Source: Sipunculus nudus | Lineage: Eukaryota; Annelida; Sipuncula; Golfingiida; Sipunculidae | DNA: 64,000 bases | Direction of reading: 5' to 3' | Assembly: GCA_026874595.1 (NCBI GenBank) | Contig: CM049315.1 | Location: forward strand, 35,914,164-35,978,163 | Shown here: positions 40,128-64,000 of the stretch, one piece after another | Layout of the letters: each line of letters begins with the position of its first letter | Numbering within the stretch: position 1 is the stretch's first letter | Translations under genes and position numbers: made by a program | The notes under the pieces: generated by a model | What the model saw: the letters and a program-made list of their open reading frames with translations, nothing else | Database searches by the model: none | What the model was told of the DNA's origin: nothing

Positions 40128-41043
40128 AGTCAATGAACACAAAAAGAAGAGAGACATTAACGCCAACATTTCAAACAATCATATTATTTGGATCACATGT
40201 ACAGATTGTTGCTAAATTTTCAGCTACCCCTGTAGCCTTCGTCAGAGCGAGTGACTAACTGTAAACAAAGCTGATAGTGTGACCCTTCGCTAGGTCAATT
40301 GGGCTGGCTTGCCAGCTAAACTCATTAATCAATCTGATGTCTTGTCAGGACTGGCCTGTGTATGTCCACATGAAAACAGGGCTGCTGGGGTGTCAAAGAC
40401 AGGGAGGGGTTAGTCTCGAGGGGAAAAGTATGTGCTGAGTGCCGGGTATTTACAGAGAAAAGCCAAGTCTTTGTTTAATCCTTTTATGTGCGTACGTAGT
40501 GTATGAATGTGCCTTTGTTCTGATGTGAATCTGTCTTTGCTGGAGGAAAAGTTGCCTTTAAGGATGGTGCATGTTAAATCTCGAAGAGAATGGTCGGATT
40601 TGTTGAAATGTGCGGCCACGGGGAATCCGGGAGTGTTGTCGCGGATGGTTTTTTTGTGGTTGTTCATTCTGAGCCTGAATTTGGTGCCGGTTTCTCCTAT
40701 ATAATTTCCCTCCCCATTGGGGCATTTTTTACAAGTAATGAAGTAAATGACATTTGAGGAATTGCAAGAAAAAGGGCCTGGCCTGAGGGTTATGTTAGAT
40801 CCTGGGGACTGAAATGTGGGTTTGGTGTTTAAAATATCGCAAATCTCACAGCGGCGGTCACCGTATTTGACATTCCCTGACGGGCTGTTCTGTTTGTGTA
40901 GTTTCGAGTGGACAAGCATGCGTTTGAGGTTGGGAGGTTGTCTGTAAGCGGCAACGGGAGGCGTGGAGAAAAGAGAATTTGTAGCGGGATTTGAATTAAA
41001 GTTATTCCAGCATTTTTGTATATTTTTGTTGATAGAGATGATG
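40128..41043 (-). mobile_element. Penelope-like element 3' half, left arm (minus)
   Basis: The 916-base arm is almost perfectly complementary to 41137-42053. It carries the GIY-YIG open frame 40410-40919 and a 3' tail with a hammerhead-like motif (40218-40245), and ends 30 bases from a (TA)n tract. The upstream reverse transcriptase is absent; the arm stops at 41043 where the spacer begins. Confidence 0.75.
40410..40919 (-). CDS. GIY-YIG endonuclease domain of a Penelope-like element
   Basis: A 169-codon open frame on the minus strand. A cysteine-bearing linker (CEICD; then CNSSNVIYFITCKKC) leads into the nuclease: NYIGETGTKFRLRMNNHKK carries the YIG-equivalent and the catalytic arginine region, followed by PVAAHFNKSDHSL, and the conserved glutamate lies in FTSEQRHIHTL. 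In Penelope-like retroelements this domain follows the reverse transcriptase and nicks target DNA. No reverse transcriptase precedes it, so it is a 5'-truncated copy. The frame is open through to its stop, unlike the right-arm copy. Confidence 0.8.
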   Translation of the reverse strand: MLVHSKLHKQNSPSGNVKYGDRRCEICDILNTKPTFQSPGSNITLRPGPFSCNSSNVIYFITCKKCPNGEGNYIGETGTKFRLRMNNHKKTIRDNTPGFPVAAHFNKSDHSLRDLTCTILKGNFSSSKDRFTSEQRHIHTLRTHIKGLNKDLAFLCKYPALSTYFSPRD

Positions 41044-41136
41044 CAGCGAAATGATGATGAAACGAAACAGCCTCCTCAGGTACAAAGAAAAAGACATAAA
41101 TTCACGCATCCCCATGATCCAGGAATTTCACCCGGC
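41044..41136. other. 93 bp spacer at the centre of the palindrome
   Basis: Unique sequence between the arms. On the plus strand it is open and encodes part of the linker upstream of the nuclease (KDINSRIPMIQEFHP), so it belongs to the right-hand copy, which is longer at its 5' side. Confidence 0.7.
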
Positions 41137-41771
41137 CATCATCTCTATCAACAAAAATATACAAAAATGCTGGAATAACTTTAATTCAAATCCCGCTACA
41201 AATTCTCTTTTCTCCACGCCTCCCGTTGCCGCTTACAGACAACCTCCCAACCTCAAACGCATGCTTGTCCACTCGAAACTACACAAACAGAACAGCCCGT
41301 CAGGGAATGTCAAATGCGGTGACCGCCGCTGTGAGATTTGCGATATTTTAAACACCAAACCCACATTTCAGTCCCCAGGATCTAACATAACCCTCAGGAC
41401 AGGCCCTTTTTCTTGCAATTCCTCAAATGTCATTTACTTCATTACTTGTAAAAAATGCCCCAATGGGGAGGGAAATTATATAGGAGAAACCGGCACCAAA
41501 TTCAGGCTCAGAATGAACAACCACAAAAAAAACCATCCGCGACAACACTCCCGGATTCCCCGTGGCCGCACATTTCAACAAATCCGACCATTCTCTTCGA
41601 GATTTAACATGCACCATCCTTAAAGGCAACTTTCCCTCCAGCAAAGACAGATTCACATCAGAACAAAGGCACATTCATACACTACGTACGCACATAAAAG
41701 GATTAAACAAAGACTTGGCTTTTCTCTGTAAATACCCGGCACTCAGCACATACTTTTCCCCTCGAGACTAA
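41051..41771 (+). pseudogene. Penelope-like GIY-YIG nuclease, frameshifted copy
   Basis: The plus-strand frame 41051-41623 covers the linker and nuclease up to RLRMNNHKK, then shifts. The remainder (AAHFNKSDHSLRDL to YFSPRD) is open at 41562-41771. The cause is an A8 run at 41525-41532, where the left arm has seven (40649-40655). Other differences from the left copy are a few single residues, for example VKCGDRR against VKYGDRR. It is a near-identical but broken sister of the minus-strand copy. Confidence 0.8.
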
Positions 41772-42049
41772 CCCCTCCCTGTCTTTGACACCCCAGCAGC
41801 CCTGTTTTCATGTGGACATACACAGGCCAGTCCTGACAAGACATCAGATTGATTAATGAGTTTAGCTGGCAAGCCAGCCCAATTGACCTAGCGAAGGGTC
41901 ACACTATCAGCTTTGTTTACAGTTAGTCACTCGCTCTGACGAAGGCTACAGGGGTAGCTGAAAATTTAGCAACAATCTGTACATGTGATCCAAATAATAT
42001 GATTGTTTGAAATGTTGGCGTTGATGTCTCTCTTCTTTTTGTGTTCATT

Positions 42050-42053
<4 letters not shown>
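41137..42053 (+). mobile_element. Penelope-like element 3' half, right arm (plus)
   Basis: Reverse-complement partner of 40128-41043, one base longer because of the A8 run. It ends directly at the (TA)n tract 42053-42093. Confidence 0.8.
41936..41963 (+). ncRNA. Hammerhead-ribozyme-like motif in Penelope tail
   Basis: CTGACGA is followed by a hairpin (GCTAC, loop AGGG, GTAGC) and then GAAA. Penelope-like elements are known to carry hammerhead motifs of this layout. The first pairs next to the core are A-T and an irregular G, and stems I and III could not be drawn convincingly, so activity is uncertain. A mirror copy lies at 40218-40245 on the minus strand. Confidence 0.35.

Positions 42054-42093
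<40 letters not shown>
42053..42093. repeat. (TA)n microsatellite at the right end of the Penelope palindrome
   Basis: About 20 TA units abutting the right arm. Confidence 0.95.
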
Positions 42094-42095
<2 letters not shown>

Positions 42096-42325
42096 CTGTA
42101 AGGTCACCCGAAAAGTTGTACCTTGCCATTGATTAAGTTCTCAAACCAATTTGCACTTGAATAGGGGTATATCTTTTTTAGGTTATCGACCTATAAACCT
42201 TGTATATTCTTGTAACTGTTGCTAAATTTCTAAATTCTTTGGAAACTAATAACAGGTGAACAATGGTTGTTTGGGTCCTTGTGAATCTTGTATCTGTCCA
42301 TATTTCTGAAGCTTATTTTTCAAAG

Positions 42326-42577
42326 AATGTAAAGCTGATATATTTGGAGAAGATTATCGAGGAACCCAGACTAGGACCGTCAGTCTTAAGACCTGTCAAA
42401 GATGGGACACACAGTACCCACACTCACATCCTTACACGGACGCCAAAGACTTCCCAGATGATTCTATAGAGGAAGCGAGCAACTTCTGCAGAAACCCTGA
42501 CAAGGCACCTACAGGGCCTTGGTGTTACACGACCGACCCAGACACTGAACGAGAAACCTGCAACGTTAAAGCATGCG
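42326..42577 (+). CDS. Kringle exon 4, intact
   Basis: 252 bases, phase 1-1, between TTTTTCAAAG and GGTGAGT. It starts ECKADIFGEDYRGTQTRT and continues KTCQRWDTQYPHSHP, SNFCRNPDKAPTGPWCYTT, DTERETCNVKAC. All six kringle cysteines are present, with canonical YRGT, CQRW, FCRNP and PWCYTTDP. Kringles are roughly 80-residue disulfide-knotted extracellular domains that bind proteins and sometimes lysine. The lysine-pocket Asp-x-Asp of plasminogen kringles (RNPDxD) reads DKA here, so classic lysine binding is unlikely (inference). It lies just before kringle 5 and 5.2 kb after the last broken kringle. Confidence 0.88.
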
Positions 42578-42689
42578 GTGAGTTGGACTGCAAAACCTCA
42601 ACTAGTCATGGCGGAAGGCTAACATTCCAACTATTTGCTTATGAATGTTCAGCAAATTTGCAGCTGTCAAACAATATATATATATAGTG

Positions 42690-42800: not shown

Positions 42801-43065
42801 CACATATATATACCGTTGGTCAAGCATAAACTGTTACAAGCGTGATCTAGGCTATGGAACATACAGTGAGTGATACCGGAAACACCAAACAAGTCCCGGT
42901 GGTTTTGTAATACATGCATGTTAATCAGGCTACAATATATGAAGTGTGACCCATTCCCTACATTTCGTTAGAAATATCTATAGAAAAGCATGACTGCAGC
43001 CGTTCTTGTATAATACGAATGGCCATTTGTTATTGGTGTTTTGCATTTTGTCAAACATTTTGCAG

Positions 43066-43317
43066 GCTGCAAGAAGACACGCGCTGGGATCGATTATGCT
43101 GGGAAAATCTCTAGAACTAGGTCTGGATTTACCTGCCAGAGATGGACCGACGTTACCCCGCACGAACATAACCACACGGATGCAGAGAATTTCCCCGAAT
43201 CCAACATTCCGGAAGCAGAAAATTTTTGTAGAAATCCGGATAGAAATCCAACAGGTCCATGGTGCTTTACGGTAGAATATAATGTCAGATGGGATTTCTG
43301 CGATATACCCATATGCA
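43066..43317 (+). CDS. Kringle exon 5, intact
   Basis: 252 bases, phase 1-1, between CATTTTGCAG and AGTAAGT. It reads GCKKTRAGIDYAGKISRT, GFTCQRWTDVTPHEHNH, ENFCRNPDRNPTGPWCFT, then WDFCDIPIC. All six cysteines and the W.FCDIP.C ending are canonical. The RNPDxD position reads DRN, again without the second acidic residue. It joins kringle 4 on one side and the Thr-rich exon on the other in the same phase. It is the last kringle before the stalk and, unlike the rest of the stalk/TM part, is not included in the tandem amplification. Confidence 0.9.
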
Positions 43318-43550
43318 GTAAGTGCAGGGGCCTGTCCTAAATAAAGATATCATAAAATGCATGGCAAATCATCATGAATGCTTTCATTATTATACACTTA
43401 AGCATAGTAATGCCTATTTAACCATGACACATATCCTGAGAACAGACGATAATGAATTATATATATGAAAATGTGAAGCGTGTTAATTCCATAATTAACT
43501 TTAAAGTGTTGCATTATATGTTACTAAATAATATTTGTTCATAATAAAAG
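43318..43550. other. Intron between kringle 5 and the Thr-rich exon
   Basis: AT-rich. The acceptor is a purine-rich ATAATAAAAG at 43541-43550, weak but required by the reading frame. Confidence 0.5.
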
Positions 43551-44887
43551 AGCCAAAGCCCACGCAAGCTCAGGAAAAGTTGAAAGTATCAACAACGGAG
43601 AAACGCACAACTACAGGACTGGAGACAGAAAGAACGACAATTCAGACTACAACTAGTATCCATACATCGACTGTAAAAGAAACTCCTTCAACAGCACAAC
43701 CGACAATGTCAACCAAAATTAAAACTCGTATAACAACAGACACCACGACAACTTCAGTAAGAATACCAACAACAAATGTTCAAACAACTCCCTACCAAGA
43801 AACATCAAGTACTGAGGGGACAACAGACGGACCTACAACAACCATCTTCACAACAACAACGATGAAAGCAAGAAAAGCCGAAAAAGCAACGACAACTAAA
43901 AAAGCAACAAAAACCGAAAAGGCAGCAACGAGAGCAACAACAACCAAGAAAACAACAATGAGAGCAACAACAATAGAGAATACAACAACCAGAGCAACAA
44001 CAACCGAGAAAACAACAACGAGAGCAACAACAACTGAAAAAGCAACAACCACGAAATCAACAACGAACGAGAAGGCAACAACAACAGAAAAAGCAACAAC
44101 AGTGAGGACATCAACATCAAACGTCAAATAACCACACCAACATTGCAAGGAAAAACATCAACCGAGGAAGCAATAATATCAACCGTGGGAGCAAAATCAA
44201 CGGAGAGAGCGACAAAGATCAAAGAAACAACAAAAAAGGACGATTTATCAACAACGCAGTTGGCTAAAACACAGGCAATAATCATGCCCAGAAGAACAAA
44301 AAACCTAGCGACCACTGATATATATGTCACAGCTGTGTATACCAGGCCAGTTGTGGACAAGACTACAGGCAAAAAGGAAGTATCAACCTTACAAATGACC
44401 ACTTTCGATAAAAACACAAAAGGTGAGGAGACGACAACCATCACAATATTATCACCAGCAGAAACAACAGCAGCTGCGAAAACGACAGATGGAAGGACGG
44501 GGCTACAAGATTCGACGGTTTCCTCGGAAATAGAGCAGACCACGTTAACAGGGACCACGGCACAAGTGGTTGTCAGAGTAGATAGTCCGAAAAAAAACAC
44601 ACAAAAGACAGTTCAAACCGTCGTCTCTACTCAGAACAGTTACAACACTGACGTGGACGGATCTATTTCGAAAACACCAGATTTCGTAAAGTCTTCCAAG
44701 ATTTCATCGACCAGATCAACCACGAAAGCCCAGTCACCACGAACTACTATAAAATCTGTACCAATCAGTATATTATTAAACACTCAGGTAACCGGTCACG
44801 GGACAACCGAGAGTACAGAGAGCTTCGGGAAGGGAGGGCCTGCTGTCTCAAAGGAAATGTTAACCAAATTCCATGGTCACTCCGCAG
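43551..44887 (+). CDS. Thr-rich mucin-like stalk exon, with one-base frameshift
   Basis: A long exon from 43551 (KPKPTQAQEKLKVSTTEK) to a GGTAAGC donor at 44888. Thr dominates, with Ser, Lys, Glu and Ala. A 30-base unit encoding RATTTEKTTT is repeated at about 43925-44060. Such Thr/Ser-rich stretches are O-glycosylated stalks in membrane mucins. The frame stops at 44129-44131 (TAA) but continues one base over as ITTPTLQGKTSTEEA to HSAG. The total of 1337 bases is one short of a phase 1-1 exon, so one base is missing at about 44115-44131. The identical break occurs in copies 2 and 3. Cysteines are absent. Confidence 0.7.
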
Positions 44888-45014
44888 GTAAGCATGCTTC
44901 GATTAACTCATAAGAACTCCAATTCCCCCTTTCAGGACAAAAATGTCACTATGTTGCACTTTAGTTATACCTTTATCATTTGTTTCTTCTTGATTCACCT
45001 GTGATATGTCACTT

Positions 45015-45065
<51 letters not shown>

Positions 45066-45152
45066 CATAATAACATTATGCTTACCACGTAGGCAGAATA
45101 TGCCGTCACCAATCACAGAATATAAAAAATTAAATCATTTTTTTTCGTGTAG

Positions 45153-45491
45153 ATCAAGATAACGTAACGTCGTATAATATGTCTAAAACAAAATCCCACG
45201 CGACGTTCGGCGAGACCAGTACAACTAACTCTACAATATCTGAGAAAACTATATGCAAACAATCCGAGACATTTAGACCCACGACAGACAGCAAACCCTT
45301 ATCCAAGGAGTCCGAGAATAGAGAAAACAGAACAGGTGGTATTCCCGTAACATCGGATTCCATTACAATGAGGTATACAACATTTGACAAAGAGGCAACA
45401 AAGTCCACACAGACTGCATACGTTGCAAAGAACACAACGGTACCAAGGCAGTCGGAATACACAACAAGTTCCATTGGGGTCTTTCAAAACG
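45153..45491 (+). CDS. Stalk exon 2 (Ser/Thr/Lys-rich)
   Basis: 339 bases (113 codons), phase 1-1, between TTTCGTGTAG and GGTCAGT. It starts DQDNVTSYNMSKTKSHATFG and ends SSIGVFQNG. It is rich in Thr, Ser, Glu and Lys with a single cysteine (ICKQSE), and has N-glycosylation-type NVT, NST and NTT triplets. No folded domain was recognised. It continues the extracellular stalk. Confidence 0.7.
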
Positions 45492-45903
45492 GTCAGTGAT
45501 GATAATACTTTACTGTAATGTCTGTCTCGTTACATTCACTACAAACAAACTGCTCACTGCCTTTTCTATGAATATTTTGGACATTTATTTCTATTAAATC
45601 TCATATATTATAACGGAACTGATCATTATATTTATTCCGGAGCTGAAACCCATATGTGCATGTGTTCAAATAGCATATGTCAAATCGTACTCTTTAAATC
45701 TGTTTGTAACCTCAAAGAATAAAAAATTTACAAAAAAAAATTATAAGGCGCAAACATTAAAGATAGACGCTAATTATTCCTGGAGTTTAATACGTGCCAC
45801 GACTGTCCTAGCATTTCTGCAAAGATATACGTTGTGTTTACCCGTATATCATGAAAATGTAGTTCATTATACACAATGTTATATATTGTGGTTTTGATTA
45901 AAG

Positions 45904-45990
45904 ATCACACAAGCAAGAAGGCAGTATCAGACATTAAAAATCATGCCTCGCCAGACCCAGCTGCCACAAGAACAGCAAAAGTATTAACAG
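45904..45990 (+). CDS. Stalk exon 3 (29 codons)
   Basis: 87 bases, phase 1-1, between TTTTGATTAAAG and GGTATGC. It encodes DHTSKKAVSDIKNHASPD, then PAATRTAKVLTG. It was found by phase and splice borders, and it is too short for independent proof. It is identical in the three tandem copies. Confidence 0.5.
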
Positions 45991-46291
45991 GTATGCATGA
46001 ACTTCAATTGTCTCAGTGAAGTATCATAAAGAAAATGTAATGCAGAAAACAGCTGCGCTTAACGGTAAAAGGTCATATTATAGAGATAGTATTTACAATA
46101 TCAGGTATTTTTTTGTGCATAACTAACCCAGGCTTTAAATGAATCATTTTGTTTCATCATCCGTGTCACTAATGATGTTACATTACTCTCAGAACCCATT
46201 CATATTACCAATTTTTTTGCAACTACATTACATTGAAACAATTTATGACATTTAATTTTTTCAATTAGGGAGAGACCGATTCTAGTATATG

Positions 46292-46348
<57 letters not shown>

Positions 46349-46650
46349 CTTTAATACTTATACTACATATACGGAAGTCAGATAGTCAGCTAAAGGTGTA
46401 TCTTATAATAGAAATGCCGTTGTCTCATCAAATTAAATGTAAATACGGATTTTTCCATCTGTGTATGTGTAAAGCTGATAAAGACCTAGCCCTAAATGCA
46501 ATGTTACTTAGATTGTTTCGTCCTGAACTATACGAATAAGAAGCAAAGCAATGGTACAACCTTAAATAAATAGAATTTATTGATCCTGTGAATATTGTAT
46601 GAAATGGTAGACAGAAAAGGAATCTCAAAGTATAATAATTAGTAAACTGG

Positions 46651-46710
46651 CTACCGTGGTATAGTGGTAGAACACAGGACTTAAGCCGAGAAATCGTGAG
46701 TTCGAAACTT
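46651..46710 (+). other. tRNA-like Pol III promoter segment in a stalk intron
   Basis: A-box-like TGGTATAGTGGTAG (46657-46670) and B-box-like GAGTTCGAAAC lie 28 bases apart. The acceptor and T stems do not pair well, so this is a tRNA pseudogene or SINE head rather than a tRNA gene. It is duplicated at 54478-54537 and 62298-62357 with the tandem units. Confidence 0.35.
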
Positions 46711-47033
46711 TTCCATTTTTCACGATCAGTCTCCACCCAAACTGTTCAGGCTCATTTGGAAGGCCATGCCCAAACGAGTGCGCCTTTCGGGGGATCCTCC
46801 TTGGAATGACCTAGCAATGGGGGACGATCACACAACTATGGCCAGCAGGCGCAAAAGTTACCGGGCCTGGTTAACACCAGGATATAAATCAAGAGGAAAC
46901 GTGTTACGTATTCTGAAACTGGGTATTCTGCAGGTGGACAAACCTAGTTAAGCTAGTATTAAAATTTACGTGGTTACCTTCAAATAAAACAATAAGAGAT
47001 ATTCATAATAACAATTTGCATCTGTGTTCTCAG

Positions 47034-47102
47034 ACTCATCTACCAAGCCTGAATCGCTCGGTGTGACAGCTGAAACATTGAGAGAGATCAATAGCAATAC
47101 AG
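47034..47102 (+). CDS. Stalk exon 4 (23 codons)
   Basis: 69 bases, phase 1-1, between CTGTGTTCTCAG and GGTAATAC. It encodes DSSTKPESLGVTAETLRE, then INSNTG. Good splice borders and matching phase support it; function as a membrane-proximal stalk is inference. Confidence 0.5.
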
Positions 47103-48417
47103 GTAATACGTTCTAATAGCCTCAATGCTACAACAGCATTTCTGTTGGACCTTCCTACAATCATTAGAATCAAATTAACGAACAACTTTTCAATTTTCCA
47201 TTAGATATGTTTATTATCAGTGTGTATTGTCTTTTATTTTTGAACGAACTCTTTTTATCATCCGCTTCATTCTAAAATGCTAAAACCGATATCATATGCC
47301 ATCACGATTTGTAATGTTTCAATTTGCCTTGTTAGTAATCCTTGTATAAAGAAAGAAAATCATACAGTGTATCGATATGAAAAACAAATGTACGATGACA
47401 TTAATGGCTAAGGAGAATCAAACTGTCTCAATCAAAACAGAATAATCACAGCTTTAACCTGGCATAATAAATATATAGAAGTGATTCATAAAGACCTAGT
47501 TTTAGATTAGAAGTGAATCTGAATATATTCCACAGAACATAGGATAGTGGTAGGAATATTCATTATACTGAATGAACAGTTATATTATTCTTAAAGAATA
47601 CTGATTAAATATACCTTAAATCAGCTTTGGAATGAAAACATTTCTTTTAATGCTTGATATGATATCTACCAATAGCTTGCTCCTATGGAAAACTTTATAA
47701 TATTTGTGCGTTTGATAGACCTTTGAGAAGGCGGATTATATCTAATGAAATTTATGTTTGGGACACATATATCTCAGTATATTTGGGCCATATCCGAAAC
47801 GAAGGTACAGAAAATAAAATTTAAAACTTGAACCAATAAAAAGTAATACGTAAGCCAGATATTGTTGATATGGAAAACGCTTGGTTTTGAATAGTTTGTT
47901 AGAAATTTTCGCTATCACAGTAGCACCATGACGGTAGACGGAACTTTAGATGCATAGGTCCAACTGCTGTAAAATCTTTGATAAGCTCTATCAACATTCT
48001 GGTCTATATCTTATTTCTTTTTTAAGGAAAAGAAAATATTAAATCTCAACACGTCTTTAATGGTATCAATGAAATTTTTTTTTATTAATGATCAATATAT
48101 TCTTTTTTTACAATAGAAACATGGTATATAGGGACAAAATAGGGAAAATTTGCATTTCCAATGGTTTTATAAATGAAAAGGCGAAAGAGTGATAAAACAC
48201 TTCTGTCTGCATACCTTTAATGATCCGTGGATACAGATAATGAATGTGATTACATTAGACACCTGCATGTAGTAACAAATGATCGCAATTTTATTTTCTT
48301 TAATGCGAAGACTTTGTTATTAATATATGCGGCTGTGAGCCAGTGATTTTTACCCGTAAAATAAGGTTGTTGTATTTCCGAATAGCCGCACCTAGAAAAT
48401 TTATTCCTTTTTTCAAG

Positions 48418-48651
48418 ATTTCCTGATGGATGTGATAACGATATCAAGCAGTGTTGTTCTGTCGGGGCTCGTCGTCCTGTCTCTCGCCGTCTTAATGGTA
48501 CACTGGAATGCTAGAAGAGACAGACGCAGAGCCGAAAGGAAACAAATTAGGATGAGGCGACGGTTACGTCCCCTTCGAGTCAAAGCGGCGAAAGATGCAT
48601 CAAAAGTGGACACCACAGAATCCCAGACGAGGAATGCCACGGAGACTTCAG
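48418..48651 (+). CDS. Transmembrane exon with Arg-rich juxtamembrane tail
   Basis: 234 bases (78 codons), phase 1-1, between TTTTTTCAAG and GGTATTGG. It begins DFLMDVITISSS. A hydrophobic helix follows (about residues 13-31, SVVLSGLVVLSLAVLMVHW), then the stop-transfer run NARRDRRRAERKQIRMRRR, then a hydrophilic segment ending ATETSG. This gives a single-pass type I orientation: Thr-rich stalk outside, basic tail inside. If the donor is not used, the frame runs on to a stop at 48687-48689. No ITIM, kinase or death-domain motif was seen in the tail. Confidence 0.75.
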
Positions 48652-49659
48652 GTATTGGAATATCAAAAAATTACCTTGGATTGTCATAAAACTAGCGGGT
48701 CAGTCTATTGTTAATACTCAAAATTCTGATTCAGCGACTCCACTCCATGAATTTATTTTTCGAATTTGAATAGAAAATAAGTGATATGGTAGCTCGTGAT
48801 AAAAAGCATCGCCTTTTTTTGAATATTTATTGCTCCTAAAATTATGTTATATTGCTCATTGAGCATTCTTTTTGGCTTCTCCGGGAATATCTAATCACAT
48901 GATCTTAATAAGTAATAGTAAAATTAACAAAGAGCCAAAGAATAAATAATCATCTGGACATTTAAATATCGGAAAGATTTAACACTGTTCGGTTCATTCA
49001 CAACGTTTAACTGAACATTGTAACATTATATCTTCAAAATCTTAAACTAGGTCCCACTGGCTAATTGTTGTAAATAAGATTGCTACAAATCCCTTTCTTC
49101 TTTTTTTTCCATGGTGATGAATACATATTTTTCTTCGGCTAATTAAACTAGAATAATGCTACTCAAACACAAATATACCTGTCATCTGAAGAATTTTTAA
49201 GCAGTCAACAGATTTCTCAGTCATGGATTCCTTGATCGTCTTTGAACTTAAATGCATAATCTCAAATTATGTTGGCCGCTGTACAACAAAGACGTGAGCG
49301 ATATCTGACAGACTTTTATTTTGTGTTATCTGCCTTAATACAGGCTGTCATGTCACAAAAGATATCCTCAGGATTATTCATCTGAGATAATATTACTTGT
49401 AATTTTAAAAATTGAGAGTCGTGATAGTTTTCCGTCATGTGGTAATAGTTGCCATTGTGCTTGCTAGCTATTTGTGTCTAACGTTTCTCACTGATCAGCA
49501 CTATCCTGGTCAGTTAACACTGTAGATATTTCAGAAATGATATGATTATTAAATATGCAGAATCTTAGCCTTTCTACATTAGATTTCTAGATTCGGATGA
49601 AGCTCGACTCTATAACGTGGCTGTTAAGTGATTTGTCTCATATAACATTTCTCTTCCAG

Positions 49660-49676
49660 GCTTGAAAATAAATTGA
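49660..49676 (+). CDS. Candidate terminal exon a (GLKIN, stop)
   Basis: The acceptor TTTCTCTTCCAG fits phase 1 from the TM exon. It adds five residues then TGA, with an AATAAA overlapping the stop region. It is very short, so support is only splice quality and its duplicated partner. Confidence 0.35.
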
Positions 49677-49817
49677 CACTTTCAGGCTTAATGTACTTTG
49701 AAAAATAGAGATTTCAGTAATCATACGATTATTAATTAGGAGGAATTTGGATCTTTTCTGTATTATAGATAGATATTTTTGACGCTTGACTCTTCTGATT
49801 TCACATTTCTCTTCCAG

Positions 49818-49849
49818 GTTTGAAAATGAATTGGCACTACTCAACTTGA
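49818..49849 (+). CDS. Candidate terminal exon b (GLKMNWHYST, stop)
   Basis: Same TTTCTCTTCCAG acceptor, phase 1, ten residues then TGA. It is an alternative to exon a through the local duplication. Transcript data would decide between them. Confidence 0.35.
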
Positions 49850-49859
49850 TACAATACGA

Positions 49860-50778
49860 ATCTTTTAAAAAAAAAAAAACGAAACATTTAACAAAACTTA
49901 CATAATTATGAGTTCATCCAGTGTAAGGTATCCATTCCGTAAAGTCAAATACTATTAATATGCTTTGGTCAGAGTTATAGCAATCTGTCATGATGAATTA
50001 TTTTATCACTTACTTAGACGATAATTATCTCATTACCAATATTATTTTTTTTCTAAACCAAACCGGCTTTCATTCATTGTTCCATATATACAAACTACAC
50101 TGCCTGAGACATCAATTGATGATTGTTACATGATGTGCTAAAGATTATTTTCAAATCTGTAGAGTAGAATCATCCTAAATAATCTCTCTCTCTCTCATTT
50201 ACTAGAAGTCGGTAATATGGTTATAAGCTGCACCTAGCTTTATTAAACTATATTAACCAAATCTAATAGGAGAGAAACGGCTGAAGGATTCTTGAAGTGT
50301 GTTGCTTGTTTGTAGGGTGAGGGGCCATTGGTAACTTATCCTTTAAATGCTATCAATTCATCAAATCCTCGGATGAACGTAACGTGGATATTCAATTTTC
50401 GCACACATATCGTTTCAGAGAACCCATGTCACGCTGCGCTTGAGACACAACACACGATGCTGAGTGTCTACTCAGGCGTGTCCTACAGGTGAATGTGCAA
50501 GTGTACGTCTACCCACAGCTTTCGTCAGAATTCGGACACTGTATATATGGAGTGTCAGCTCCTCCATACAAGGGAAACTCAGATGATTTATAGATCATGA
50601 AGAATTGCTGACACACACTGGTCAAATATTGATAATGATTCCCCATCACGTACCTTAAAATGATTTTTTTCCGTTTGGAGGTTGTCCTTACGTTAACAAA
50701 TCATTCACTTTCACCGAGACCAAATGATTTTGCAAGCTTACTTTATCTGAAATGTTAATTCCTTTGTTTTAATGTTTA

Positions 50779-50825
<47 letters not shown>

Positions 50826-51540
50826 CTAATATATGTTCCCATGTCATCGCAACTCCGTTGTATGACATTGAATCTTAAGTTGATACATGAACTCTTTGAA
50901 AAAAAAATATTTAATGCGTCTTTATCTTGCTTAAGAATAATAAAATCATGGAAAATATATTTATTCGAGTTTTCTCCTCTTATTTTCAAAGGGATTACCC
51001 CAGTTTAATAATTGTTGTGTATTGCTTGTTGCATGATTTACGATCGGTCCCAGGGGGTTTCTTATGGTTTATGGCAATCTTGTTTAAATTACAGACGGTT
51101 CACTTTCGACTTCGGGTAATGTGAGTGAATACAAGCAAGAAGACAATGGGTAGGGTGATCGACGGTTTTGAATTAATAATTCTGCTCAGTGTATCGAATG
51201 GTGTTTCGATTTATTGCGCATCATTAATAAAGAAATCTGAGTCCGGATATTTTATCTACTTGGATTTTGTTTTCAATAGGACTAATCATTTTTTTAATAT
51301 TTCAAAATGTCTTGACTAAACATAAAAATTACAACCTGAACAGACACGCCTGAATATCTTACCCTTTCCTATGGGTGCTTTGATATCCTGCATACAATAC
51401 AAACGTCAAAGTGCGTGTAAGAGGAATATCATTTACGAATTTTACATAGAATATACTACGTTATATACATAAAATTGAAACACTTTCAAATGCATTAAGA
51501 AATTGATACATTAGGCCATGAGATAATAGAGATACTCCAG
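49860..51540. other. Non-coding end of tandem unit 1
   Basis: AT-rich, with a (TA)n tract at 50781-50822. No exon or promoter was recognised. The last bases (GATACTCCAG) form a possible acceptor just before the unit junction. Confidence 0.45.
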
Positions 51541-52836
51541 TCAGGATCTTGATAACAACAGACACCACGACAACTTCAGTAAGAATACCAACAACAAATG
51601 TTCAAACAACTCCCTACCAAGAAACATCAAGTACTGAGGGGACAACAGACGGACCTACAACAACCATCTTCACAACAACAACGATGAAAGCAAGAAAAGC
51701 CGAAAAAGCAACGACAACTAAAAAAGCAACAAAAACCGAAAAGGCAGCAACGAGAGCAACAACAACCAAGAAAACAACAATGAGAGCAACAACAATAGAG
51801 AATACAACAACCAGAGCAACAACAACCGAGAAAACAACAACGAGAGCAACAACAACTGAAAAAGCAACAACCACGAAATCAACAACGAACGAGAAGGCAA
51901 CAACAACAGAAAAAGCAACAACAGTGAGGACATCAACATCAAACGTCAAATAACCACACCAACATTGCAAGGAAAAACATCAACCGAGGAAGCAATAATA
52001 TCAACCGTGGGAGCAAAATCAACGGAGAGAGCGACAAAGATCAAAGAAACAACAAAAAAGGACGATTTATCAACAACGCAGTTGGCTAAAACACAGGCAA
52101 TAATCATGCCCAGAAGAACAAAAAACCTAGCGACCACTGATATATATGTCACAGCTGTGTATACCAGGCCAGTTGTGGACAAGACTACAGGCAAAAAGGA
52201 AGTATCAACCTTACAAATGACCACTTTCGATAAAAACACAAAAGGTGAGGAGACGACAACCATCACAATATTATCACCAGCAGAAACAACAGCAGCTGCG
52301 AAAACGACAGATGGAAGGACGGGGCTACAAGATTCGACGGTTTCCTCGGAAATAGAGCAGACCACGTTAACAGGGACCACGGCACAAGTGGTTGTCAGAG
52401 TAGATAGTCCGAAAAAAAACACACAAAAGACAGTTCAAACCGTCGTCTCTACTCAGAACAGTTACAACACTGACGTGGACGGATCTATTTCGAAAACACC
52501 AGATTTCGTAAAGTCTTCCAAGATTTCATCGACCAGATCAACCACGAAAGCCCAGTCACCACGAACTACTATAAAATCTGTACCAATCAGTATATTATTA
52601 AACACTCAGGTAACCGGTCACGGGACAACCGAGAGTACAGAGAGCTTCGGGAAGGGAGGGCCTGCTGTCTCAAAGGAAATGTTAACCAAATTCCATGGTC
52701 ACTCCGCAGGTAAGCATGCTTCGATTAACTCATAAGAACTCCAATTCCCCCTTTCAGGACAAAAATGTCACTATGTTGCACTTTAGTTATACCTTTATCA
52801 TTTGTTTCTTCTTGATTCACCTGTGATATGTCACTT

Positions 52837-52881
<45 letters not shown>

Positions 52882-54108
52882 CATAATAACATTATGCTTA
52901 CCACGTAGGCAGAATATGCCGTCACCAATCACAGAATATAAAAAATTAAATCATTTTTTTTCGTGTAGATCAAGATAACGTAACGTCGTATAATATGTCT
53001 AAAACAAAATCCCACGCGACGTTCGGCGAGACCAGTACAACTAACTCTACAATATCTGAGAAAACTATATGCAAACAATCCGAGACATTTAGACCCACGA
53101 CAGACAGCAAACCCTTATCCAAGGAGTCCGAGAATAGAGAAAACAGAACAGGTGGTATTCCCGTAACATCGGATTCCATTACAATGAGGTATACAACATT
53201 TGACAAAGAGGCAACAAAGTCCACACAGACTGCATACGTTGCAAAGAACACAACGGTACCAAGGCAGTCGGAATACACAACAAGTTCCATTGGGGTCTTT
53301 CAAAACGGTCAGTGATGATAATACTTTACTGTAATGTCTGTCTCGTTACATTCACTACAAACAAACTGCTCACTGCCTTTTCTATGAATATTTTGGACAT
53401 TTATTTCTATTAAATCTCATATATTATAACGGAACTGATCATTATATTTATTCCGGAGCTGAAACCCATATGTGCATGTGTTCAAATAGCATATGTCAAA
53501 TCGTACTCTTTAAATCTGTTTGTAACCTCAAAGAATAAAAAATTTACAAAAAAAATATTATAAGGCGCAAACATTAAAGATAGACGCTAATTATTCCTGG
53601 AGTTTAATACGTGCCACGACTGTCCTAGCATTTCTGCAAAGATATACGTTGTGTTTACCCGTATATCATGAAAATGTAGTTCATTATACACAATGTTATA
53701 TATTGTGGTTTTGATTAAAGATCACACAAGCAAGAAGGCAGTATCAGACATTAAAAATCATGCCTCGCCAGACCCAGCTGCCACAAGAACAGCAAAAGTA
53801 TTAACAGGTATGCATGAACTTCAATTGTCTCAGTGAAGTATCATAAAGAAAATGTAATGCAGAAAACAGCTGCGCTTAACGGTAAAAGGTCATATTATAG
53901 AGATAGTATTTACAATATCAGGTATTTTTTTGTGCATAACTAACCCAGGCTTTAAATGAATCATTTTGTTTCATCATCCGTGTCACTAATGATGTTACAT
54001 TACTCTCAGAACCCATTCATATTACCAATTTTTTTGCAACTACATTACATTGAAACAATTTATGACATTTAATTTTTTCAATTAGGGAGAGACCGATTCT
54101 AGTATATG

Positions 54109-54175
<67 letters not shown>

Positions 54176-57100
54176 CTTTAATACTTATACTACATATACG
54201 GAAGTCAGATAGTCAGCTAAAGGTGTATCTTATAATAGAAATGCCGTTGTCTCATCAAATTAAATGTAAATACGGATTTTTCCATCTGTGTATGTGTAAA
54301 GCTGATAAAGACCTAGCCCTAAATGCAATGTTACTTAGATTGTTTCGTCCTGAACTATACGAATAAGAAGCAAAGCAATGGTACAACCTTAAATAAATAG
54401 AATTTATTGATCCTGTGAATATTGTATGAAATGGTAGACAGAAAAGGAATCTCAAAGTATAATAATTAGTAAACTGGCTACCGTGGTATAGTGGTAGAAC
54501 ACAGGACTTAAGCCGAGAAATCGTGAGTTCGAAACTTTTCCATTTTTCACGATCAGTCTCCACCCAAACTGTTCAGGCTCATTTGGAAGGCCATGCCCAA
54601 ACGAGTGCGCCTTTCGGGGGATCCTCCTTGGAATGACCTAGCAATGGGGGACGATCACACAACTATGGCCAGCAGGCGCAAAAGTTACCGGGCCTGGTTA
54701 ACACCAGGATATAAATCAAGAGGAAACGTGTTACGTATTCTGAAACTGGGTATTCTGCAGGTGGACAAACCTAGTTAAGCTAGTATTAAAATTTACGTGG
54801 TTACCTTCAAATAAAACAATAAGAGATATTCATAATAACAATTTGCATCTGTGTTCTCAGACTCATCTACCAAGCCTGAATCGCTCGGTGTGACAGCTGA
54901 AACATTGAGAGAGATCAATAGCAATACAGGTAATACGTTCTAATAGCCTCAATGCTACAACAGCATTTCTGTTGGACCTTCCTACAATCATTAGAATCAA
55001 ATTAACGAACAACTTTTCAATTTTCCATTAGATATGTTTATTATCAGTGTGTATTGTCTTTTATTTTTGAACGAACTCTTTTTATCATCCGCTTCATTCT
55101 AAAATGCTAAAACCGATATCATATGCCATCACGATTTGTAATGTTTCAATTTGCCTTGTTAGTAATCCTTGTATAAAGAAAGAAAATCATACAGTGTATC
55201 GATATGAAAAACAAATGTACGATGGCATTAATGGCTAAGGAGAATCAAACTGTCTCAATCAAAACAGAATAATCACAGCTTTAACCTGGCATAATAAATA
55301 TATAGAAGTGATTCATAAAGACCTAGTTTTAGATTAGAAGTGAATCTGAATATATTCCACAGAACATAGGATAGTGGTAGGAATATTCATTATACTGAAT
55401 GAACAGTTATATTATTCTTAAAGAATACTGATTAAATATACCTTAAATCAGCTTTGGAATGAAAACATTTCTTTTAATGCTTGATATGATATCTACCAAT
55501 AGCTTGCTCCTATGGAAAACTTTATAATATTTGTGCGTTTGATAGACCTTTGAGAAGGCGGATTATATCTAATGAAATTTATGTTTGGGACACATATATC
55601 TCAGTATATTTGGGCCATATCCGAAACGAAGGTACAGAAAATAAAATTTAAAACTTGAACCAATAAAAAGTAATACGTAAGCCAGATATTGTTGATATGG
55701 AAAACGCTTGGTTTTGAATAGTTTGTTAGAAATTTTCGCTATCACAGTAGCACCATGACGGTAGACGGAACTTTAGATGCATAGGTCCAACTGCTGTAAA
55801 ATCTTTGATAAGCTCTATCAACATTCTGGTCTATATCTTATTTCTTTTTTAAGGAAAAGAAAATATTAAATCTCAACACGTCTTTAATGGTATCAATGAA
55901 ATTTTTTTTTATTAATGATCAATATATTCTTTTTTTACAATAGAAACATGGTATATAGGGACAAAATAGGGAAAATTTGCATTTCCAATGGTTTTATAAA
56001 TGAAAAGGCGAAAGAGTGATAAAACACTTCTGTCTGCATACCTTTAATGATCCGTGGATACAGATAATGAATGTGATTACATTAGACACCTGCATGTAGT
56101 AACAAATGATCGCAATTTTATTTTCTTTAATGCGAAGACTTTGTTATTAATATATGCGGCTGTGAGCCAGTGATTTTTACCCGTAAAATAAGGTTGTTGT
56201 ATTTCCGAATAGCCGCACCTAGAAAATTTATTCCTTTTTTCAAGATTTCCTGATGGATGTGATAACGATATCAAGCAGTGTTGTTCTGTCGGGGCTCGTC
56301 GTCCTGTCTCTCGCCGTCTTAATGGTACACTGGAATGCTAGAAGAGACAGACGCAGAGCCGAAAGGAAACAAATTAGGATGAGGCGACGGTTACGTCCCC
56401 TTCGAGTCAAAGCGGCGAAAGATGCATCAAAAGTGGACACCACAGAATCCCAGACGAGGAATGCCACGGAGACTTCAGGTATTGGAATATCAAAAAATTA
56501 CCTTGGATTGTCATAAAACTAGCGGGTCAGTCTATTGTTAATACTCAAAATTCTGATTCAGCGACTCCACTCCATGAATTTATTTTTCGAATTTGAATAG
56601 AAAATAAGTGATATGGTAGCTCGTGATAAAAAGCATCGCCTTTTTTTGAATATTTATTGCTCCTAAAATTATGTTATATTGCTCATTGAGCATTCTTTTT
56701 GGCTTCTCCGGGAATATCTAATCACATGATCTTAATAAGTAATAGTAAAATTAACAAAGAGCCAAAGAATAAATAATCATCTGGACATTTAAATATCGGA
56801 AAGATTTAACACTGTTCGGTTCATTCACAACGTTTAACTGAACATTGTAACATTATATCTTCAAAATCTTAAACTAGGTCCCACTGGCTAATTGTTGTAA
56901 ATAAGATTGCTACAAATCCCTTTCTTCTTTTTTTTCCATGGTGATGAATACATATTTTTCTTCGGCTAATTAAACTAGAATAATGCTACTCAAACACAAA
57001 TATACCTGTCATCTGAAGAATTTTTAAGCAGTCAACAGATTTCTCAGTCATGGATTCCTTGATCGTCTTTGAACTTAAATGCATAATCTCAAATTATGTT

Positions 57101-57676
57101 GGCCGCTGTACAACAAAGACGTGAGCGATATCTGACAGACTTTTATTTTGTGTTATCTGCCTTAATACAGGCTGTCATGTCACAAAAGATATCCTCAGGA
57201 TTATTCATCTGAGATAATATTACTTGTAATTTTAAAAATTGAGAGTCGTGATAGTTTTCCGTCATGTGGTAATAGTTGCCATTGTGCTTGCTAGCTATTT
57301 GTGTCTAACGTTTCTCACTGATCAGCACTATCCTGGTCAGTTAACACTGTAGATATTTCAGAAATGATATGATTATTAAATATGCAGAATCTTAGCCTTT
57401 CTACATTAGATTTCTAGATTCGGATGAAGCTCGACTCTATAACGTGGCTGTTAAGTGATTTGTCTCATATAACATTTCTCTTCCAGGCTTGAAAATAAAT
57501 TGACACTTTCAGGCTTAATGTACTTTGAAAAATAGAGATTTCAGTAATCATACGATTATTAATTAGGAGGAATTTGGATCTTTTCTGTATTATAGATAGA
57601 TATTTTTGACGCTTGACTCTTCTGATTTCACATTTCTCTTCCAGGTTTGAAAATGAATTGGCACTACTCAACTTGA
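51541..57676 (+). CDS. Copy 2 of stalk/TM exons (no kringles)
   Basis: Exons equivalent to copy 1: Thr-rich exon from the junction 51552 (or from 51541 if TACTCCAG acts as acceptor, in frame) to 52709, stalk exons 52969-53307, 53721-53807 and 54861-54929, TM exon 56245-56478, candidate terminal exons 57487-57503 and 57645-57676. The same Thr-exon frameshift (TAA ending 51953) is present. The 5' end of the Thr exon, the kringles, and any signal peptide or promoter are missing. It is therefore either a non-coding duplicate or extra exons of the same gene; all are phase 1-1. Confidence 0.55.
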
Positions 57677-58605
57677 TACAATACGAATCTTTTAAAAAAA
57701 AAAAAACGAAACATTTAACAAAACTTACATAATTATGAGTTCATCCAGTGTAAGGTATCCATTCCGTAAAGTCAAATACTATTAATATGCTTTGGTCAGA
57801 GTTATAGCAATCTGTCATGATGAATTATTTTATCACTTACTTAGACGATAATTATCTCATTACCAATATTATTTTTTTTCTAAACCAAACCGGCTTTCAT
57901 TCATTGTTCCATATATACAAACTACACTGCCTGAGACATCAATTGATGATTGTTACATGATGTGCTAAAGATTATTTTCAAATCTGTAGAGTAGAATCAT
58001 CCTAAATAATCTCTCTCTCTCTCATTTACTAGAAGTCGGTAATATGGTTATAAGCTGCACCTAGCTTTATTAAACTATATTAACCAAATCTAATAGGAGA
58101 GAAACGGCTGAAGGATTCTTGAAGTGTGTTGCTTGTTTGTAGGGTGAGGGGCCATTGGTAACTTATCCTTTAAATGCTATCAATTCATCAAATCCTCGGA
58201 TGAACGTAACGTGGATATTCAATTTTCGCACACATATCGTTTCAGAGAACCCATGTCACGCTGCGCTTGAGACACAACACACGATGCTGAGTGTCTACTC
58301 AGGCGTGTCCTACAGGTGAATGTGCAAGTGTACGTCTACCCACAGCTTTCGTCAGAATTCGGACACTGTATATATGGAGTGTCAGCTCCTCCATACAAGG
58401 GAAACTCAGATGATTTATAGATCATGAAGAATTGCTGACACACACTGGTCAAATATTGATAATGATTCCCCATCACGTACCTTAAAATGATTTTTTTCCG
58501 TTTGGAGGTTGTCCTTACGTTAACAAATCATTCACTTTCACCGAGACCAAATGATTTTGCAAGCTTACTTTATCTGAAATGTTAATTCCTTTGTTTTAAT
58601 GTTTA

Positions 58606-58650
<45 letters not shown>

Positions 58651-59376
58651 CTAATATATGTTCCCATGTCATCGCAACTCCGTTGTATGACATTGAATCT
58701 TAAGTTGATACATGAACTCTTTGAAAAAAAAATATTTAATGCGTCTTTATCTTGCTTAAGAATAATAAAATCATGGAAAATATATTTATTCGAGTTTTCT
58801 CCTCTTATTTTCAAAGGGATTACCCCAGTTTAATAATTGTTGTGTATTGCTTGTTGCATGATTTACGATCGGTCCCAGGGGGTTTCTTATGGTTTATGGC
58901 AATCTTGTTTAAATTACAGACGGTTCACTTTCGACTTCGGGTAATGTGAGTGAATACAAGCAAGAAGACAATGGGTAGGGTGATCGACGGTTTTGAATTA
59001 ATAATTCTGCTCAGTGTATCGAATGGTGTTTCGATTTATTGCGCATCATTAATAAAGAAATCTGAGTCCGGATATTTTATCTACTTGGATTTTGTTTTCA
59101 ATAGGACTAATCATTTTTTTAATATTTCAAAATGTCTTGACTAAACATAAAAATTACAACCTGAACAGACACGCCTGAATATCTTACCCTTTCCTATGGG
59201 TGCTTTGATATCCTGCATACAATACAAACGTCAAAGTGCGTGTAAGAGGAATATCATTTACGAATTTTACATAGAATATACTACGTTATATACATAAAAT
59301 TGAAACACTTTCAAATGCATTAAGAAATTGATACATTAGGCCATGAGATAATAGAGATACTCCAGTCAGGATCTTG
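51552..59376 (+). repeat. Tandem unit 2 (7825 bp)
   Basis: Complete second copy. The junction is at 51551/51552: left is the non-coding end of unit 1, right is mid-exon Thr-rich sequence. (TA)n tracts lie at 52840-52877, 54111-54173 and 58608-58647, all with lengths different from unit 1. One substitution noted: G at 55225 where units 1 and 3 have A (47398, 63045). Confidence 0.95.
54478..54537 (+). other. tRNA-like segment, copy in unit 2
   Basis: Identical to 46651-46710. Confidence 0.35.
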
Positions 59377-60661
59377 ATAACAACAGACACCACGACAACT
59401 TCAGTAAGAATACCAACAACAAATGTTCAAACAACTCCCTACCAAGAAACATCAAGTACTGAGGGGACAACAGACGGACCTACAACAACCATCTTCACAA
59501 CAACAACGATGAAAGCAAGAAAAGCCGAAAAAGCAACGACAACTAAAAAAGCAACAAAAACCGAAAAGGCAGCAACGAGAGCAACAACAACCAAGAAAAC
59601 AACAATGAGAGCAACAACAATAGAGAATACAACAACCAGAGCAACAACAACCGAGAAAACAACAACGAGAGCAACAACAACTGAAAAAGCAACAACCACG
59701 AAATCAACAACGAACGAGAAGGCAACAACAACAGAAAAAGCAACAACAGTGAGGACATCAACATCAAACGTCAAATAACCACACCAACATTGCAAGGAAA
59801 AACATCAACCGAGGAAGCAATAATATCAACCGTGGGAGCAAAATCAACGGAGAGAGCGACAAAGATCAAAGAAACAACAAAAAAGGACGATTTATCAACA
59901 ACGCAGTTGGCTAAAACACAGGCAATAATCATGCCCAGAAGAACAAAAAACCTAGCGACCACTGATATATATGTCACAGCTGTGTATACCAGGCCAGTTG
60001 TGGACAAGACTACAGGCAAAAAGGAAGTATCAACCTTACAAATGACCACTTTCGATAAAAACACAAAAGGTGAGGAGACGACAACCATCACAATATTATC
60101 ACCAGCAGAAACAACAGCAGCTGCGAAAACGACAGATGGAAGGACGGGGCTACAAGATTCGACGGTTTCCTCGGAAATAGAGCAGACCACGTTAACAGGG
60201 ACCACGGCACAAGTGGTTGTCAGAGTAGATAGTCCGAAAAAAAACACACAAAAGACAGTTCAAACCGTCGTCTCTACTCAGAACAGTTACAACACTGACG
60301 TGGACGGATCTATTTCGAAAACACCAGATTTCGTAAAGTCTTCCAAGATTTCATCGACCAGATCAACCACGAAAGCCCAGTCACCACGAACTACTATAAA
60401 ATCTGTACCAATCAGTATATTATTAAACACTCAGGTAACCGGTCACGGGACAACCGAGAGTACAGAGAGCTTCGGGAAGGGAGGGCCTGCTGTCTCAAAG
60501 GAAATGTTAACCAAATTCCATGGTCACTCCGCAGGTAAGCATGCTTCGATTAACTCATAAGAACTCCAATTCCCCCTTTCAGGACAAAAATGTCACTATG
60601 TTGCACTTTAGTTATACCTTTATCATTTGTTTCTTCTTGATTCACCTGTGATATGTCACTT

Positions 60662-60706
<45 letters not shown>

Positions 60707-61932
60707 CATAATAACATTATGCTTACCACGTAGGCAGAATATGCCGTCACCAATCACAGAATATAAAAAATTAAATCATTTTTTTTCGTGTAGATCAAGA
60801 TAACGTAACGTCGTATAATATGTCTAAAACAAAATCCCACGCGACGTTCGGCGAGACCAGTACAACTAACTCTACAATATCTGAGAAAACTATATGCAAA
60901 CAATCCGAGACATTTAGACCCACGACAGACAGCAAACCCTTATCCAAGGAGTCCGAGAATAGAGAAAACAGAACAGGTGGTATTCCCGTAACATCGGATT
61001 CCATTACAATGAGGTATACAACATTTGACAAAGAGGCAACAAAGTCCACACAGACTGCATACGTTGCAAAGAACACAACGGTACCAAGGCAGTCGGAATA
61101 CACAACAAGTTCCATTGGGGTCTTTCAAAACGGTCAGTGATGATAATACTTTACTGTAATGTCTGTCTCGTTACATTCACTACAAACAAACTGCTCACTG
61201 CCTTTTCTATGAATATTTTGGACATTTATTTCTATTAAATCTCATATATTATAACGGAACTGATCATTATATTTATTCCGGAGCTGAAACCCATATGTGC
61301 ATGTGTTCAAATAGCATATGTCAAATCGTACTCTTTAAATCTGTTTGTAACCTCAAAGAATAAAAAATTTACAAAAAAATATTATAAGGCGCAAACATTA
61401 AAGATAGACGCTAATTATTCCTGGAGTTTAATACGTGCCACGACTGTCCTAGCATTTCTGCAAAGATATACGTTGTGTTTACCCGTATATCATGAAAATG
61501 TAGTTCATTATACACAATGTTATATATTGTGGTTTTGATTAAAGATCACACAAGCAAGAAGGCAGTATCAGACATTAAAAATCATGCCTCGCCAGACCCA
61601 GCTGCCACAAGAACAGCAAAAGTATTAACAGGTATGCATGAACTTCAATTGTCTCAGTGAAGTATCATAAAGAAAATGTAATGCAGAAAACAGCTGCGCT
61701 TAACGGTAAAAGGTCATATTATAGAGATAGTATTTACAATATCAGGTATTTTTTTGTGCATAACTAACCCAGGCTTTAAATGAATCATTTTGTTTCATCA
61801 TCCGTGTCACTAATGATGTTACATTACTCTCAGAACCCATTCATATTACCAATTTTTTTGCAACTACATTACATTGAAACAATTTATGACATTTAATTTT
61901 TTCAATTAGGGAGAGACCGATTCTAGTATATG

Positions 61933-61995
<63 letters not shown>

Positions 61996-62749
61996 CTTTA
62001 ATACTTATACTACATATACGGAAGTCAGATAGTCAGCTAAAGGTGTATCTTATAATAGAAATGCCGTTGTCTCATCAAATTAAATGTAAATACGGATTTT
62101 TCCATCTGTGTATGTGTAAAGCTGATAAAGACCTAGCCCTAAATGCAATGTTACTTAGATTGTTTCGTCCTGAACTATACGAATAAGAAGCAAAGCAATG
62201 GTACAACCTTAAATAAATAGAATTTATTGATCCTGTGAATATTGTATGAAATGGTAGACAGAAAAGGAATCTCAAAGTATAATAATTAGTAAACTGGCTA
62301 CCGTGGTATAGTGGTAGAACACAGGACTTAAGCCGAGAAATCGTGAGTTCGAAACTTTTCCATTTTTCACGATCAGTCTCCACCCAAACTGTTCAGGCTC
62401 ATTTGGAAGGCCATGCCCAAACGAGTGCGCCTTTCGGGGGATCCTCCTTGGAATGACCTAGCAATGGGGGACGATCACACAACTATGGCCAGCAGGCGCA
62501 AAAGTTACCGGGCCTGGTTAACACCAGGATATAAATCAAGAGGAAACGTGTTACGTATTCTGAAACTGGGTATTCTGCAGGTGGACAAACCTAGTTAAGC
62601 TAGTATTAAAATTTACGTGGTTACCTTCAAATAAAACAATAAGAGATATTCATAATAACAATTTGCATCTGTGTTCTCAGACTCATCTACCAAGCCTGAA
62701 TCGCTCGGTGTGACAGCTGAAACATTGAGAGAGATCAATAGCAATACAG
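59366..62749 (+). CDS. Copy 3 of stalk exons (partial)
   Basis: Thr-rich exon 59377-60534 (possible acceptor giving a start at 59366), stalk exons 60794-61132, 61545-61631 and 62681-62749. The same frameshift occurs (TAA ending 59778). The TM exon would start about 65 bases beyond the window end. No kringle or promoter lies between this copy and copy 2. Confidence 0.55.
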
Positions 62750-64000
62750 GTAATACGTTCTAATAGCCTCAATGCTACAACAGCATTTCTGTTGGACCTT
62801 CCTACAATCATTAGAATCAAATTAACGAACAACTTTTCAATTTTCCATTAGATATGTTTATTATCAGTGTGTATTGTCTTTTATTTTTGAACGAACTCTT
62901 TTTATCATCCGCTTCATTCTAAAATGCTAAAACCGATATCATATGCCATCACGATTTGTAATGTTTCAATTTGCCTTGTTAGTAATCCTTGTATAAAGAA
63001 AGAAAATCATACAGTGTATCGATATGAAAAACAAATGTACGATGACATTAATGGCTAAGGAGAATCAAACTGTCTCAATCAAAACAGAATAATCACAGCT
63101 TTAACCTGGCATAATAAATATATAGAAGTGATTCATAAAGACCTAGTTTTAGATTAGAAGTGAATCTGAATATATTCCACAGAACATAGGATAGTGGTAG
63201 GAATATTCATTATACTGAATGAACAGTTATATTATTCTTAAAGAATACTGATTAAATATACCTTAAATCAGCTTTGGAATGAAAACATTTCTTTTAATGC
63301 TTGATATGATATCTACCAATAGCTTGCTCCTATGGAAAACTTTATAATATTTGTGCGTTTGATAGACCTTTGAGAAGGCGGATTATATCTAATGAAATTT
63401 ATGTTTGGGACACATATATCTCAGTATATTTGGGCCATATCCGAAACGAAGGTACAGAAAATAAAATTTAAAACTTGAACCAATAAAAAGTAATACGTAA
63501 GCCAGATATTGTTGATATGGAAAACGCTTGGTTTTGAATAGTTTGTTAGAAATTTTCGCTATCACAGTAGCACCATGACGGTAGACGGAACTTTAGATGC
63601 ATAGGTCCAACTGCTGTAAAATCTTTGATAAGCTCTATCAACATTCTGGTCTATATCTTATTTCTTTTTTAAGGAAAAGAAAATATTAAATCTCAACACG
63701 TCTTTAATGGTATCAATGAAATTTTTTTTTATTAATGATCAATATATTCTTTTTTTACAATAGAAACATGGTATATAGGGACAAAATAGGGAAAATTTGC
63801 ATTTCCAATGGTTTTATAAATGAAAAGGCGAAAGAGTGATAAAACACTTCTGTCTGCATACCTTTAATGATCCGTGGATACAGATAATGAATGTGATTAC
63901 ATTAGACACCTGCATGTAGTAACAAATGATCGCAATTTTATTTTCTTTAATGCGAAGACTTTGTTATTAATATATGCGGCTGTGAGCCAGTGATTTTTAC
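59377..64000 (+). repeat. Tandem unit 3 (cut by window end)
   Basis: First 4624 bases of a third copy, (TA)n at 60665-60702 and 61935-61993. It shares with unit 2 a poly-A/TATTATAAGG variant (near 61380 and 53560) where unit 1 has a poly-A/TTATAAGG form (near 45740). Confidence 0.95.
62298..62357 (+). other. tRNA-like segment, copy in unit 3
   Basis: Identical to 46651-46710. Confidence 0.35.

Follow-up and report, generated by a model that had tools for sequence, protein, structure and literature searches.

A probable recent tandem duplication of a stalk and membrane gene segment beside kringle exons in Sipunculus nudus

The stretch of Sipunculus nudus DNA analysed here (positions 35,914,164 to 35,978,163 of contig CM049315.1, assembly GCA_026874595.1; hereafter the window, 64000 bases with no N) carries a gene region in which kringle exons are followed by exons for a threonine-rich (Thr-rich) stalk and a membrane segment, and it closes with a tandem array built from the latter part of this gene. 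The array was studied by self-BLAST and by global alignment of its units, and ten translated pieces of the kringle gene region were scanned against Pfam. Exon borders were placed from splice-site motifs and phase, not from transcripts; all the exons described below lie on the plus strand.

The array consists of unit 1 at 43730-51551 (7822 bp), unit 2 at 51552-59376 (7825 bp) and a partial unit 3 at 59377-64000, the first 4624 bp of which precede the window end. The units follow one another head to tail. In self-comparison, 43730-56180 matched 51552-64000 with 99.79% identity over 12462 columns (2 mismatches and 24 gap positions), and 43730-48353 matched 59377-64000 with 99.72% identity over 4630 columns (1 mismatch and 12 gap positions). 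Near-identical copies of such length far exceed chance, and their adjacent head-to-tail arrangement with a common junction is that of a tandem segmental duplication. The two unit lengths and the partial third copy agree exactly with the original prediction, which had also correctly placed the unit start in the Thr-rich exon and its end downstream of the membrane exon, leaving out the kringle exons.

More precisely, the unit starts at 43730, that is, 179 bp inside the Thr-rich exon (43551-44887, 1337 bp, delimited by phase-1 splice sites) at exon base 180, without the acceptor of that exon. It then includes a second serine/threonine-rich stalk exon (45153-45491, phase 1-1) and the membrane exon (48418-48689), and ends about 2.9 kb beyond the latter. 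In the window as a whole, the Thr-rich part of the unit and the second stalk exon (again at 52969-53307 and 60794-61132) each occur three times without a single change, and the membrane exon twice (again at 56245-56516). The predicted three copies of a stalk and membrane segment are thus present as far as the stalk is concerned, with two membrane exons in the window; a third one, if present, would fall just beyond 64000. Units 2 and 3 are 5′-truncated, having neither kringle exons nor the Thr-rich exon's acceptor, and the kringle exons stay attached to the leftmost unit only.

Global alignment placed the first junction at 51542-51561, where CAGGATCTTG is directly followed by ATAACAACAG (break at 51551/51552); the second junction, at 59367-59386 (break at 59376/59377), is base-identical to the first. 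When the left flank of the array was compared with the unit end at the breakpoint, 12 of 40 positions matched, with none of the last five among them, and the longest match in the compared stretches was 11 bases, away from the breakpoint. No homology was therefore found at the breakpoint between the left flank and the unit end, the right flank lying beyond the window. Non-allelic homologous recombination implies homology at both unit edges; on the left side, which is the one that falls within the window, there is none, and a homology-driven origin at that edge was rejected.

The units differ from one another at very few positions. Five differences separate units 1 and 2 in the global alignment: a substitution (A at 47398 versus G at 55225), a base where an A-run ends, and the lengths of three (TA)n tracts (unit 1: 44, 52 and 42 bases; unit 2: 38, 62 and 40). 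Outside the TA tracts and the A-run the divergence is 1 in about 7675 positions, which bears out the predicted near-absence of differences beyond such tracts and means that the copies are either young or recently homogenised. We leave the age at "young", since exchange between units masks divergence. Over the 4.6 kb that they have in common, units 1 and 3 show three differences (two TA lengths and A versus T at the run edge, 45739/61380), and between units 2 and 3 the length of one A-run, that of one TA tract and a single base (G at 55225, A at 63045) differ. At the two single-base sites the units thus form three combinations, A/A in unit 1, T/G in unit 2 and T/A in unit 3, while the first TA tract has 38 bases in units 2 and 3 versus 44 in unit 1.

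Upstream of the array, five kringle exons were found. K2 (35591-35824) has an open frame and matches Pfam Kringle at 6.6e-15, in part (profile 17-79 of 79); K4 (42310-42577) has an open frame and a donor, its 5′ end not being fixed, and gives 1.2e-22 on the open frame 42310-42684; K5 (43066-43317) has an open frame, an acceptor and a phase-1 donor, and gives 6.6e-24 on 43014-43337. K4 and K5 are each present once in the window. These were the three of the ten pieces with Kringle above the cut-off, so that the gene does contain the domain expected of a kringle-containing membrane protein. The kringle exons and the introns by themselves point to an animal genome. K5 resembles solved kringles of plasminogen, HGF, prothrombin, apolipoprotein(a) and ROR1/ROR2 among the matches listed (60 of 85). 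The other two exons are decayed: K1 (34832-35114) has no first cysteine and changes frame after CRNPD, with no Pfam match for its second frame, the one scanned, and K3 (36921-37090) has lost its middle and also changes frame, two pieces around 36735-37228 matching Kringle below the Pfam cut-off.

On the other side of the kringles, the Thr-rich, second stalk and membrane exons are connected by phase-1 splice sites. The membrane exon is open to TAA at 48687, with a possible donor after 48651, and encodes one hydrophobic segment followed by a basic tail (mean hydropathy 2.3 over 19 residues on the Kyte-Doolittle scale). Its two sub-threshold Pfam matches, Sensor (0.0009) and TMEM100 (0.006), are read as chance matches of the membrane segment. 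The word "receptor" used in the original prediction is an inference; Pfam gave neither a ligand nor a signalling domain for the ten pieces scanned. The Thr-rich exon also holds a degenerate 15/30 bp minisatellite at 43851-44102, identical in all three units.

The reading frame of the Thr-rich exon is not intact. Its 1337 bp leave a remainder of 2 on division by 3 despite phase-1 sites at both ends; the first part is Thr-rich in one frame, which is closed by TAA at 44129-44131, and the remainder is Thr-rich in another frame, open for 251 codons. The TAA recurs in unit 2 (51951-51953) and in unit 3 (59776-59778). Two ways around the frame change were tried and rejected: the one GT-AG pair checked by hand as a short intron spans 48 bp, a multiple of three, and would leave the frame as it is, and the few GT candidates checked by hand as an early donor leading directly to the second stalk exon are in phase 0, not 1. 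With the exon borders as placed here, no continuous frame runs from the kringles to the membrane segment, and the frame change, the TAA and the decayed K1 and K3 together lead us to conclude that the assembled gene encodes no continuous kringle-stalk-membrane protein.

We interpret the array as the product of a recent partial-gene tandem duplication, probably neutral and grown by unequal exchange, and put the probability of this reading of the sequence at about 0.6. A break-and-join event without detectable homology on the visible side would have founded the array: sequence some 2.9 kb beyond the membrane exon would have become linked to a site lying 179 bp within the Thr-rich exon, yielding a pair of 7.8-kb units. 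From these identical units, at least one more would then have arisen by unequal exchange or slipped replication. The T and the shorter first TA tract, carried by both units 2 and 3, suggest that these two separated last. Units 2 and 3 are most likely silent 5′-truncated 3′ fragments, since they have neither kringles nor the Thr-rich acceptor and lack a known promoter (no tool was used to look for one). Neutrality is suggested by the Thr-rich stop common to the three units and by the decay of two of the five kringle exons. The segment that was amplified already carried the frame change, barring a consensus error that recurs in every unit. A young tandem amplification, as originally predicted, is thereby retained; the amplification of a working stalk and membrane segment is not, the acceptor being missing in copies 2 and 3 and the stop being present in all.

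Several observations weigh against this interpretation. One frame runs without a stop through the whole second part of the Thr-rich exon, and 0 of 5000 Markov-resampled sequences had any such frame; the same resampling gave weaker results for the first part of that exon (55/5000), the second stalk exon (79/5000) and the membrane exon (510/5000). K4, K5, the second stalk exon and the membrane exon likewise have open frames. Because K4 and K5 are open and the second Thr-rich part is open against 0/5000, coding constraint probably acted on the gene until not long ago, and the gene may still be used, for example if the frame change is an assembly error. In addition, 13 AG sites were listed around the junction, and in 5 of them the pyrimidine share reaches or exceeds 0.53, the value of the Thr-rich exon's own acceptor; a new acceptor may thus exist there, which would favour a functional array. 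Few differences set the units apart: one lies at the edge of an A-run and most others are TA tract lengths, and it is in such tracts that sequencing and consensus errors gather. The number of units in the animal may differ from the assembled count.

An explanation that overlaps the partial-gene duplication rather than excluding it is that the whole locus is a decaying pseudogene of a kringle family, in which the array is incidental. The decay of K1 and K3 and the frame change in the Thr-rich exon agree with this, but open frames and usable splice sites are seen in K4, K5, the second stalk exon and the membrane exon, and a recent allele or an error might account for the frame change, so that we regard this explanation as possible, though rather doubtful.

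We also consider it unlikely that the array is an assembly artefact, that is, that a repeat-graph miscount or two haplotypes placed end to end added units that the animal does not have. The near-identity of the units, with differences mostly in TA and A tracts, would fit such an error, and false duplications are described in PMC9516828 as frequent in older assemblies, where they make up 4 to 16% of the sequence, and as persisting at a lower level in newer ones. They stem mostly from divergent haplotypes and less often from read errors (PMC9516828). Of those remaining in the newer assemblies of that study, most share a scaffold, with 22.2 of 24.1 Mbp for the first tabled pair; near-identical copies on one scaffold, as found here, are a feature of both. 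However, the junction unites non-homologous points and is base-identical twice, which is unexpected for end-to-end haplotypes. A diploid single-copy locus, and hence a false haplotype duplication, would supply at most two unit versions, whereas three are seen at the two single-base sites; one of these deciding sites lies at the A-run edge, where a consensus error would undo the argument, which is good, not final. Moreover, gaps between copies mark false ones according to PMC9516828, while the window contains no N, and haplotypes separated because of their differences would presumably diverge by more than the roughly 1e-4 seen here. The three distinct units, the identical non-homologous junction seen twice and the absence of a gap thus set the array apart from assembly false duplications and favour a true recent tandem duplication, although a true duplication with a wrong unit count is quite possible.

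A functional amplification, in which transcripts would splice stalk exons across units or units 2 and 3 would be expressed as separate stalk-membrane proteins, is in our opinion very improbable. The phases would permit it: with phase 1-1 in the second stalk exon and phase 1 at both the Thr-rich donor and the membrane acceptor, added stalk exons would keep the frame. By hand count, an exon starting at 51541, after an AG immediately ahead of the junction, would give phase 1 with the truncated Thr-rich exon. Nevertheless, the two AG sites closest before the junction have pyrimidine shares of 0.35 and 0.41 versus 0.53-0.82 for four inferred exons, the Thr-rich stretch has a stop at a common point in the three units, and seven A[AT]TAAA signals, including four AATAAA, occur downstream of the membrane exon within the unit. 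The proposal that the array serves as a length dial for a mucin-like stalk, with transcripts that start at the kringle exons, pass several units, skip the inner membrane exons and gather phase-1 stalk exons in frame, deserves almost no credence.

A partial-gene tandem duplication is a known kind of event. In Drosophila, segregating tandem duplications cover genes in part or whole (PMC4503668), and they likewise have edges that ignore gene borders and bring gene fragments together with non-coding sequence (PMC5460883, PMC4503668); in comparison with those, the present array has at least three units. Our literature search yielded no paper joining a tandem kringle gene with a Thr-rich stalk, which is no claim that the locus is unpublished, and no kringle domain paper was among the matches listed for lineage-specific expansions in molluscs. 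In the KIV-2 array of the human LPA gene, the units carry kringle exons, and their number sets the size of the protein. That array likewise consists of multi-kilobase units within a kringle gene, about 5.5 kb each and variable in number between people (PMC12123407). Unlike KIV-2, the units described here omit the kringles, carry the end of the gene and begin inside an exon without its acceptor, and an effect on the protein is not demonstrable from the sequence.

The surroundings of the array contain further repeats. A pair of inverted copies, 99.5% identical over 917 columns and 93 bp apart, occupies 40128-42053, which ends 1.7 kb ahead of the array, and is bordered by TA tracts at 40035-40097 and 42053-42093. 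By a motif, their open reading frames look like the endonuclease end of a Penelope-type element; the frame at 40413-41075, from the one copy scanned, gave no Pfam match at E 0.1. The stretch 38041-39364, between K3 and K4, holds a 327-bp unit repeated in tandem about four times, the copies being diverged (75% matches). Farther upstream, four pieces in mixed orientation, at 13937-14158, 22237-22503, 26025-26306 (minus strand) and 31000-31416, appear to resemble a histamine N-methyltransferase-like gene, a likeness that Pfam did not confirm, and are perhaps decayed copies. The first two gave sub-threshold matches, Methyltransf_12 (0.00086) and INTS1_R4 (0.0061), respectively, and the last two had no Pfam match. 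No RNA genes or tRNAs were found (tRNA scan under a bacterial setting).

As to what the locus means, an adaptive amplification of a receptor is disfavoured by the frame change and stop in the Thr-rich exon and by the decayed kringle exons. A functional stalk array would matter more, though the frame change argues against it: if it were true, animals with differing unit numbers would bear kringle proteins on stalks of differing length, and the array would be a mirror image of the human KIV-2 array. Some caution is due in annotation, where gene predictors may call the fragments a single giant receptor or additional stalk-membrane genes. Provided that the copies are real, the locus would represent a clean and very young case of the birth of tandem partial-gene fragments, in which the first junction shows no homology on the visible side and later growth is suggested by the variants that the units have in common.

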